From Shewanella sp. c952 (GTDB lineage: Bacteria > Pseudomonadota > Gammaproteobacteria > Enterobacterales > Shewanellaceae): a stretch of DNA of 64,000 nt. The stretch covers positions 1-64,000 of the forward strand of contig NZ_BPEW01000008.1 in NCBI RefSeq assembly GCF_019654975.1, in the 5' to 3' direction. The translations under genes and the position numbers were made by a program. Of the stretch, positions 29,085 through 62,276 are shown in pieces (the stretch's first letter is position 1; the number at the start of each line of letters is the position of its first letter). The notes beneath the pieces were generated by a model that searched no databases, was not told the DNA's origin, and was given only the letters and a program-made list of their open reading frames with translations.

Positions 29085-29863
29085 TGCGAATTTGGGGTAA
29101 GGTTTTCGGTTTTATTATTGGCTATATGTTCGGTCGCCTTGGCGGTGCCATTTTTGGCTTGTGGCTTGGGCATATGTATGACCGCCGTCAAAGTGCTAGA
29201 GCAGGTATAGGCAGTAGCAGTAAGCGCCAAGCGCTATTTTTCAATACCACATTTGCTGTCATGGGGCATGTAGCAAAAGCGTCTGGTCAGGTTACAGAAG
29301 TTGATATTCGTATTGCAAATGCGCTGATGGATCAAATGCGTCTTACTGGCGATGCAAGGGCCGATGCGCAGGCTGCGTTTAGAGAAGGTAAAGAGAGTGA
29401 CTTCGATATTCACGCCTGTTTGAAGACGTTTAGATTGATCTCTATGGGTCGTAAAGAGCTACTACAGATGTTCTTAGAGATCCAAATTCAAACGGCGCTA
29501 TCAGACGCGAAGCTGGATCCTAAAGAACATACGATTCTATCGACCATTGCAAAAGAGTTAGGCTTTAGCCAAAAGCAACTCGATGAACTGTTGGCAAGAT
29601 GGCAAGCTGAATTCAATTTCCATCAACAGGGCGGAGCGGGTCATCAGACTTCCGTTGCTGATGCTTATGACGTGTTGGGAATGGAAGAGTCGATGTCAGA
29701 CCAGGATATTAAGCGTGGTTATCGTAAGTTAATGAATGAACATCACCCTGATAAACTGGTGGCCAAAGGTTTGCCACCTGAAATGATGGAGCTGGCAAAA
29801 ACAAAAGCACAGGATATTCAAGCCGCTTATGATAGGGTTAAAAGTGATAGAGGTATGCGTTAA
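29084..29863 (+). CDS. djlA: DnaJ-like membrane co-chaperone DjlA
   Basis: A 259-residue protein with one N-terminal membrane helix rich in glycine (GKVFGFIIGYMFGRLGGAIF), a central TerB-like helical domain and a C-terminal J domain with the HPD triad in NEHHPDKLV. The ATG shares one base with the murU stop. The lptD-djlA neighbourhood is also found in E. coli. Confidence 0.93.
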
Positions 29864-60138: not shown

Positions 60139-60795
60139 TTACTTATGTTCTACCGCTAGGTAGTTGATTAGGTCGATAAGCTCGCCAAGAGTACGTACAG
60201 AACTCATGTTAACGGCATACTTGTCGTTAACTACGAATGCTGGAACACTTTGTACTTTAAACTCTTGCTGCTGTGCGCGCCATAAAGCGAGTTTAGCGTT
60301 CGTTTCTTTGCTGTCAGCTGCTGCATCATATTGCGCGCTATCAACGCCAAGTTTAGCGAATACTGCTTTGATGTCGTCACGGCTTTTTAGTGGTTCAGCA
60401 TGTTTATGTCCTGAAGCACCATGATCGTGTTTCTCACCGTTGTCGCCTTGAATAACTTTAAACATCGCGTCAGTTAATGGCTTTGGATTATCCAAAGTTT
60501 GAATCACAGCAAGAGAGCGCATGACTTCAGTGTTGATTTCAGTGTTTGCAAAATCAACGTGCTTGCTATCAAAGGCCACTTGCTTATTTAGATTGGCTTT
60601 GATGTCTGGTAGGTACATCTTTTCCATATTGAAGCAGTTACCGCAGTAAAACGAGTAAAACTCAGTCAGTTTAGGCTCACTGCTTGGTGCTTTATTGCTA
60701 ACGACGGTGAAGTGTTTACCTTCAACGAATTGTGCGGCAAAGCTGCTCATTGGAGCAACAACTAAGGTAAGTGCTAAAGCGATATATTTAATCAA
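60139..60795 (-). CDS. dsbA: DsbA-like periplasmic thiol oxidase with CGNC site
   Basis: A 218-residue thioredoxin-fold protein with signal peptide (about 1-20). The active site reads C51-G-N-C54 where DsbA normally has CPHC; the cis-proline is P185 (SVPAF). The helical insert has a histidine-rich stretch (H123, H125, H130, H132) that could bind a metal. The overall plan is DsbA, but the changed dipeptide should shift its redox potential. It is monocistronic, with AGGAC before the ATG at 60795. Confidence 0.82.
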   Translation of the reverse strand: MIKYIALALTLVVAPMSSFAAQFVEGKHFTVVSNKAPSSEPKLTEFYSFYCGNCFNMEKMYLPDIKANLNKQVAFDSKHVDFANTEINTEVMRSLAVIQTLDNPKPLTDAMFKVIQGDNGEKHDHGASGHKHAEPLKSRDDIKAVFAKLGVDSAQYDAAADSKETNAKLALWRAQQQEFKVQSVPAFVVNDKYAVNMSSVRTLGELIDLINYLAVEHK

Positions 60796-61445
60796 GCTAA
60801 TGTCCTCAAAGTGACCTTTATCTTTATAGACAAGGTTGTGCAGTAACGAAAAATACAGTTATTAAGCTTCCGTTACACTAATTTATGTATACCAATCCTA
60901 CTTGAAGATGCCTTCTACGATTGGTTTTATTGGGCTTACGCTGTGTTATTTATTTTATCAAGGGAATAACCATTAGTGGCAATTAATGCCGTGATTAAAG
61001 CCCATTAAACACCCACTGCACCCTGCATGTTCAAACAGGATCTGTATACTTTTGTTAAGAATAAAACCAGATGCTTAATTATGACTTAAATTTGCCTTTC
61101 TGACATGCACTAGAGTGTGACATATATAATGCTTTAGATGAGAATCGAAATTTTTCACATTAAAGTTTGTAGTGCTTCACAATCTAGATTGAATTCGTAT
61201 AGATTTTTAATTTTTGCAGGAACTTAATGGCATTGCTGAACCATGTATTAATAGCGAGTAACGGCTATGTTTTAGATGACATCATCGTTCGTTATGAATA
61301 ATTTAAGCTTTTCATAGACATCACGACTAAGATTAACCTGATTAAGCTAACTACTTGTGTTAAATTTTAGCAAGATATTGAGTTTTTATCATTGAGTCGA
61401 AGCGCTCAGTGTTAAAACTAAAAAGTCATGTTGGGGGAAACGGAT
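60796..61445. other. 650-bp intergenic region with a MITE-like element
   Basis: Long AT-rich gap. The only structured part is the inverted-repeat element at 60887-61049; the rest shows no supported gene. The final part must hold the promoter of the exported protein gene. Confidence 0.6.
60887..61049. mobile_element. 163-bp MITE-like element with imperfect terminal inverted repeats
   Basis: The first 25 bases (60887-60911, opening GTATACCAATCCT) match the reverse complement of the last 25 (61025-61049, ending GGATCTGTATAC) at 20 of 25. A second, inner pair TGGGCTT (60931-60937) and AAGCCCA (60998-61004) nests inside. There is no coding frame. This is the plan of a non-autonomous miniature element; the related transposase is not in the window and no clear target duplication is seen. 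Confidence 0.6.
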
Positions 61446-62276
61446 TTGAATACACCATCATATATAATTATAGGTTCGATTGTTTTTGCTGGAATGGGGC
61501 TAACTGCCAAAGCAGAAGGCACTGATTGGCGAATTGCTTTTGGTGGCCATAATACGATAGTAGAGCAGGTTGACTCACATACTCTGGGCGCCCATGCAGG
61601 CTTTTTTGTTGAGCATGTTACTGAGTCCAATATTAGCTGGAAAGGTAATATTGATATTTTTATCGATGACGATAAAGATAAGCTCGATCCTGATCATATC
61701 CCTATCTGGTTTCAAACCGCTTGGTCAGTGGATGGCAATCTGTACCGCTTTTCTCCCACAATGAACCTGCAGTGGCAGGTAACTCTGGACGGTAAGCGAA
61801 ATACCGTAAGCTCGGTTGAGAAACAATCGAAACTATTCCCAGCCATTGTCGCTCGATTCGACAATCAAAAGTTTTATGCTGGACTCACGCTAGGCGGTGG
61901 TCATTATATGCTTGAGATTGATGATGATGTGCCAAGAGAGCGTGGCTATGATCGTGAAGATTTTCAAAATAAAACCGGCGCTTACACCGTTGCGGCTGAT
62001 ACAAAAATCATGCTGGGGAAATCATTTGATATCTATGCGGGCGCTCAAACATGGAATGACGGCAGTAACTGGTTGGAAAACAAATATTCAGCCGTTTTTA
62101 GCTATCACTCCGATAGTTGGATTGAGGACAGCGAGGTAAAGCTCAGTGTTGAGCACTCTGAGTATAATTTAGACCCATTTGATAATCGCGACAAAAACGA
62201 TGCTGACTATTTAGCTATTTTGCCTTGGGATCACGACACGTTAGTTCGAATATATGTCGATATGCCTTGGGGTTAA
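61446..62276 (+). CDS. Exported protein of unknown function
   Basis: A protein of about 276 residues with a signal peptide (about 1-23, ending LTAKA) and alternating beta-like strands, with an acidic stretch (FIDDDKDKLDPD) that might bind calcium. No family is recognised. The TTG at 61446 is likely the start because GGGGGA lies about nine bases before; an ATG at 61428 lacks such a site and spoils the signal peptide. A weak hairpin follows the stop. Confidence 0.6.
   Translation: MNTPSYIIIGSIVFAGMGLTAKAEGTDWRIAFGGHNTIVEQVDSHTLGAHAGFFVEHVTESNISWKGNIDIFIDDDKDKLDPDHIPIWFQTAWSVDGNLYRFSPTMNLQWQVTLDGKRNTVSSVEKQSKLFPAIVARFDNQKFYAGLTLGGGHYMLEIDDDVPRERGYDREDFQNKTGAYTVAADTKIMLGKSFDIYAGAQTWNDGSNWLENKYSAVFSYHSDSWIEDSEVKLSVEHSEYNLDPFDNRDKNDADYLAILPWDHDTLVRIYVDMPWG

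Follow-up and report, generated by a model that had tools for sequence, protein, structure and literature searches.

The window, by which we mean the whole 64,000-nucleotide stretch analysed here, holds at 60887-61049 a decayed, one-armed deletion copy of a longer non-autonomous transposon. On one side of it lies a minus-strand gene (60139-60795) with a DsbA domain (PF01323, E 8e-13), which NCBIfam DsbA models also match with scores below their cut-offs; on the other side, a plus-strand open reading frame (61428-62276) matched nothing in Pfam or NCBIfam. The parts of the element, including the arm recognised by a one-arm covariance model (named R1), are as follows.

60887..61049, whole MITE of 163 bp, from GTATAC to GTATAC, with inverted ends; absent from 18 examined orthologous sites
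60888..60911, plus strand, left terminal inverted repeat TATACCAATCCTACTTGAAGATGC, from the end-motif search, the alignment of copies and the inverted-repeat scan
61025..61048, minus strand, right terminal inverted repeat TATACAGATCCTGTTTGAACATGC (minus-strand reading), from the alignment of copies and the inverted-repeat scan
60888..60889, presumed left TA target duplicate, by analogy with the clean TA at two other copies, its own site having drifted
61047..61048, presumed right TA target duplicate, on the same analogy, its own site having drifted
60911..60912, approximate junction where the left hairpin arm is missing (about 100 bp of the 264-bp form), from alignment with 264-bp copies
60916..61022, minus strand, retained right hairpin arm with core AATGGTTATTCCCTT, found by R1 (31.5 bits, E 9.5e-7 and 7.4e-7)

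The initial annotation had proposed a MITE-like element here, with terminal repeats agreeing at 20 of 25 positions, a nested inner inverted repeat and no coding frame, and each of these descriptions proved accurate. The ends at 60887 and 61049 match at 20 of 25 positions when inverted and are the sole pair in the window with at least 20 of 25 matches and a total length of 138-275; each of six first-order Markov copies of the window, a small control, contained no inverted pair of at least 20 of 25. The inner inverted repeat lies within the 163-bp element, and no listed ORF of at least 60 amino acids is found inside it. A repeat listing with an exact seed of 9 reported no inverted pair at these positions, probably because that seed exceeds the exact runs of the pair. 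Folded as DNA (plus strand), the 163-bp stretch beats 200 of 200 shuffles (z -3.6); as RNA it does so on both strands (z -4.0 plus, z -4.3 minus), with the pairing of the retained arm partly decayed. In a search of 60700-61500 and of 15 loci against Rfam 15, nothing reached gathering scores and the matches were all lower-scoring ones. The idea that such elements may carry promoter signals found no support for the window copy: none of the seven promoter-like sites of 60700-61500 falls within 60887-61049, and no terminator-like sites were found in the same interval. Directly adjoining the insertion is a non-coding block, TTGTTAAGAATAAAACCAGATGCTTAATTATGACT (61052-61086), nearly unchanged in most of 18 aligned relatives; it may serve to regulate the neighbouring genes.

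It had also been noted that such elements can be numerous in a genome, and a sequence search recovered 19 related places in its own genome, counting the window copy. With up to 3 mismatches allowed, the end motif has 39 matches in the own genome and 0 in the control. In the comparison with other Shewanella that had been proposed, it occurs at up to 2 mismatches in 47 of 97 genus genomes, with 120 matches in one of them. We searched for orthologous sites with a query comprising the element and both neighbouring genes, which matched 91 of the 97 genus genomes and led to 29 retrieved loci from other genomes. Among the best 18 of these 29, the element is absent from all 18, two of which have flanks 91-96% identical. 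The outcome is thus not that of a single copy held at the same site by all relatives. The use of empty sites to define a target duplication succeeded away from the window. At the window site itself the nearest relatives read AATTTATATAGTTGTT and the filled site has drifted, showing no clean TA duplication; therefore TA is only presumed there. Six of thirteen other copies were compared with empty sites in four relatives. Two of the six have a clean TA duplication (against two and four relatives, respectively), one site (L047) fits a TA duplication and three are blurred; the copy at the L047 site is TATACCC-ended, present in G054 and absent from G086. The element belongs to a repeat family whose insertion at TA is shown at these other copies, at two of the six cleanly.

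Full-length members of the family contain, inside the terminal repeats, two inverted hairpin arms of about 108 nt. The commonest length in the family is 264 bp, and forms of 327, 278, 269, 263, 243, 166 and 163 bp also occur; the window copy has lost about 100 bp adjoining the left end and retains the right arm only. With up to 2 mismatches allowed, the own genome contains the core GGTTATTCCCTTTTAAG at 62 places, against 0 in the control; this gave 61 loci for examination, as one place shares a locus and is not counted apart. Elements with four kinds of ends account for 47 of these 61 loci (12 F1, 8 F2, 17 F3 and 10 F4); of the remainder, one has unassigned ends and 13 were dropped with ends below 16/22. 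In 39 of the 47 elements, 74-78 bases separate the left end from the start of the core. Consensus sequences of F1-F4 align end to end and fold alike, into a terminal stem, a left hairpin and a right hairpin. Since R1 finds the right arm on the opposite strand, the two arms are inverted homologues. The ends of F1 are 35-52% identical to those of the other families and those of F2, F3 and F4 are 58-75% identical among themselves, so that, judged on sequence identity, a contrast of ends within the own genome is clear only for F1 against F2-F4. The 327-bp forms (L020, L027) are 63 bp longer and their inner stretch holds CTACATGGATGTAG; forms of 325-327 bp are also found in F3.

We then asked how well pairing is conserved in the arms. 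The 47 left arms of the own genome, found by a 17-base pattern and with base pairs taken from a single row's fold, have 89.2% of cells paired against 76.6 when shuffled. Their covariation is 0.366, where shuffled rows give 0.170 and slid ones 0.103 at most; none of 500 shuffles reaches either the paired share or the covariation. Two-sided change occurs at 20 pairs, which is not exceptional, being reached by 50 of 500 shuffles. A 25-row subset, hand-picked to exclude near-identical, shifted or broken rows and used as the source of R1, has 90.7% paired cells and a covariation of 0.403. Across the class, 30 left arms (from 26 other genomes plus the four own families) are 91.7% paired against 65.5% shuffled, with two-sided change at 32 of 38 pairs against 24.2 and a covariation of 0.688 against 0.201 shuffled and at most 0.146 slid. 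The 23 right arms, including that of the window copy, give 86.0% against 57.9, two-sided change at 32 of 37 pairs against 26.4, and a covariation of 0.710 against 0.206 shuffled and at most 0.185 slid. These class figures lean towards structure, as the rows were found by R1, which rewards structure, and the pairs in both alignments (A4 for left arms, A5 for right arms) were named by consensus after each of those rows had been folded singly. In single-sequence folds five pairs form in all 30 arms, and in 26 other genomes the inner loops remain unpaired at a constant position, their letters (CAAGGCGC and GCAACGC) being conserved. Together, the alignments show that in many genera a predicted hairpin fold is kept through changes on both sides of the stem, even where the terminal repeats are different.

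Of 274 genomes of the class, Gammaproteobacteria, 50 have an R1 match; they represent 42 of 222 genera, the own included. A further R1 match, within the window at 29461-29536, was taken as chance, being coding-like sequence without an inner hairpin. In 19 of 26 loci from 26 other genomes, R1 finds both arms at E 0.01. The ends beside the arms at 18 other-genome loci have an inverted identity of 21 to 27 of 27 at the best small shift and, as judged by eye for other genomes, ends mostly adjoin TA, often CTAG. For 12 hand-picked elements (66 pairs), median identity is 56% for the arms and 40% for the ends, random sequences treated alike giving 42%, and the arms are more alike than the ends in 60 of the 66 pairs; the ends of three own families were here taken from a sister copy of the compared arm. 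In ordinary MITE families the ends are constant and the interior is free. Here the ends are about as alike between families as random sequences and the interior is one fold, the reverse of that arrangement. We consider it an evenly balanced question whether these elements form a class-wide superfamily, in which an inverted pair of hairpins, its shape preserved by compensatory change, rides in unrelated terminal repeats and is carried by a succession of transposases, so that the body and not the ends would be the lasting unit. A single model finds such elements across the class, and the role of a MITE interior becomes testable. The open-licence literature yielded no recognisable description of them; an earlier account of the Shewanella copies is possible, since one MITE of the genus, SonMITE_1, is known to us by mention only.

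No DDE_3 or IS630-domain match exists in the own genome. DDE_3 is found in 48 of 97 genus genomes and, of 30 such loci examined, only L119, from the genus-mate G018, is bounded by a pair of inverted MITE-like ends, with a spacing of 1.12 kb. Its ends are 17/24 and 18/24 like MITE ends and not very alike each other, and this locus went unreported in a scan for inverted repeats flanked by TA. The L119 transposase is an IS630-family protein (NCBIfam NF033545, E 1.7e-64). A protein search with it returned 52 loci, 16 of which were examined; at 10 of the 16 the best TA-flanked repeat consists of MITE-like ends, although two of these 10 come from a single Pectobacterium and four from a single symbiont MAG. 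The others comprise two with shifted or decayed ends (L198, L219), the L119 element itself (L177) and three without such ends (L183, L186, L187). The best end match is that of Vibrio hannami (L188), with 22/24 at the right end. A further IS630 found in the genus, L135, carries the ends TACCATTTACATTAAATA, 15/18 like F3 ends by eye, and a candidate partner with only one like end (L125) was rejected. In other genera, DDE_3 is present in 6 of 16 genomes, where no end pair matching the genomes' own MITE ends was seen (five compared by script, G293 by eye); single end matches reach 21/27 (L326) and 19/27 (L325). The presence elsewhere of IS630 elements with like ends, together with the TA duplication at other copies, adds to the case for a MITE. 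It also supports, from end similarity, a trans-acting IS630-family transposase that recognises TATACCC..GATGC ends as the likely mover. A search with the hairpin-arm model gave no match at 13 of 14 IS630 loci, so that IS630 as such does not require the arms; at L127, arm matches lie in apparent MITE copies beside the IS630.

We therefore regard the window stretch as probably a one-armed copy of an IS630-moved MITE, from a family whose fold is kept across genera by selection on the folded single strand. An IS630-family transposase acting in trans at the TATACCC..GATGC ends would have moved the element into TA, and selection would then act on the folded strand, which suggests that the preserved folded shape itself does something. 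What it does is a separate matter. Our weakly held preference, to which we give somewhat less than even credence, is that the arms work as RNA hairpins when transcription of an adjacent gene reads through the element, forming a double hairpin that is stable or processed and makes insertions tolerable. That the structure acts as DNA is possible, though we doubt it: the arms would extrude as hairpins or a cruciform (a three-way form with the terminal repeats), be bound by the transposase or a host factor and so aid transposition. The constant build across genera, with ends of about 26 nt and two arms mostly 212-218 nt together, fits such a role, as does the like folding of both strands. At paired columns, however, G-T cells outnumber A-C cells, less so in right arms, and this leans towards RNA. 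The counts are 177 to 51 in the left arms of alignment A2, 72 to 14 in the left arms of A4, and 63 to 32 in the right arms of A5; once the three most extreme pairs of either kind are set aside, A2 gives 83 to 26 and A5 gives 27 to 18. These counts come from related rows that are not independent, with pairs named from RNA folds of the same strand and the rows of A4 and A5 found by a same-strand model. Some other function for the fold is rather unlikely.

Selection on the fold would be superfluous if this were an ordinary IS630-type MITE whose inner hairpins are functionless by-products of palindromic origin and template-switch repair. Such repair may keep inverted repeats complementary, and insertion at TA, IS630-like ends and the 13 IS630 loci without arms all agree with this explanation. 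It should, however, yield perfect palindromes, whereas the loops are kept unpaired and letter-conserved in 26 other genomes and two-sided changes are seen at 32 of 38 pairs; we find it unlikely. A REP/REPIN-type element, mobilised by a tyrosine transposase (RAYT), would likewise be palindromic, intergenic and present in many copies, and GTAG repeats occur in some Shewanella (PMC3733652). Yet the TA duplication, terminal repeats of 24-27 nt, a length of about 264 bp and IS630 relatives with like ends make this very improbable; REP/REPIN units are GTAG-tagged palindromes of 20-40 bp with a RAYT, and the size, TA insertion and long terminal repeats found here do not fit. The conserved non-coding block directly adjoining the element might suggest a regulatory element native to the intergenic region. 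Absence from the 18 examined orthologous sites and copies elsewhere speak against a native origin, and we give this view next to no credence.

The moved MITE that we prefer has counterparts in other bacteria. Correia/NEMIS, RUP, ERIC, YPAL and Nezha are linked to IS630 and TA. Two papers (PMC3733652, PMC10969869) name them as bacterial MITEs and, like them, the present elements are short, ORF-less, bounded by terminal inverted repeats, often intergenic and probably moved in trans, and their transcripts would fold. What may set the present elements apart is a two-hairpin body with two-sided changes across genera and differing ends. SonMITE_1 is a MITE of the same genus (Romine et al. 2008, cited in PMC10969869), described there as containing promoter-like sequence; it may or may not be the same family as ours. 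IS630-family elements (NF033545) share similar TATACCC..GATGC ends and TA flanks, and those from Vibrio, Psychromonas, Pectobacterium and symbiont genomes measure about 1.1-1.2 kb; unlike the MITE, they encode a transposase.

Two own-genome stretches on contig C29 (L009 1081-1620 and L037 1282-1524) look like F1/F2 chimaeras. Along with mixed arm affinities of F1, they suggest, on sequence likeness, that ends may be exchanged by recombination. The left arm of F1 is nearest to F3 (65%), whereas for its right arm, TATACCC-ended copies aside, the closest is L316 (69%), an element with similar ends. The arm tree, with 16 of 27 inner branches open, is too weak to settle end exchange. In G086 (L108 894-1500), a TATACCC-type MITE is interrupted by at least one MITE whose ends belong to a different family.

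Plasmid searches matched three Pseudoalteromonas plasmid records and one Halomonas record, two other element queries being unmatched among plasmids, as was one element query each against phages and E. coli. Gene boundaries within 100 bp of 25 of the 47 own-genome copies (F2 not represented) comprise 18 three-prime and 10 five-prime ends, no clear bias, and none of these 25 copies, which have long flanks, overlaps a called ORF of 100 amino acids by more than 30 bp. An end pair 1.5 kb apart in G021 (L080), considered as an autonomous element, was rejected, being two MITEs beside a gene. At the same locus (32-1108), a MITE at the 3' end of the gene seems to provide its last codons and stop.
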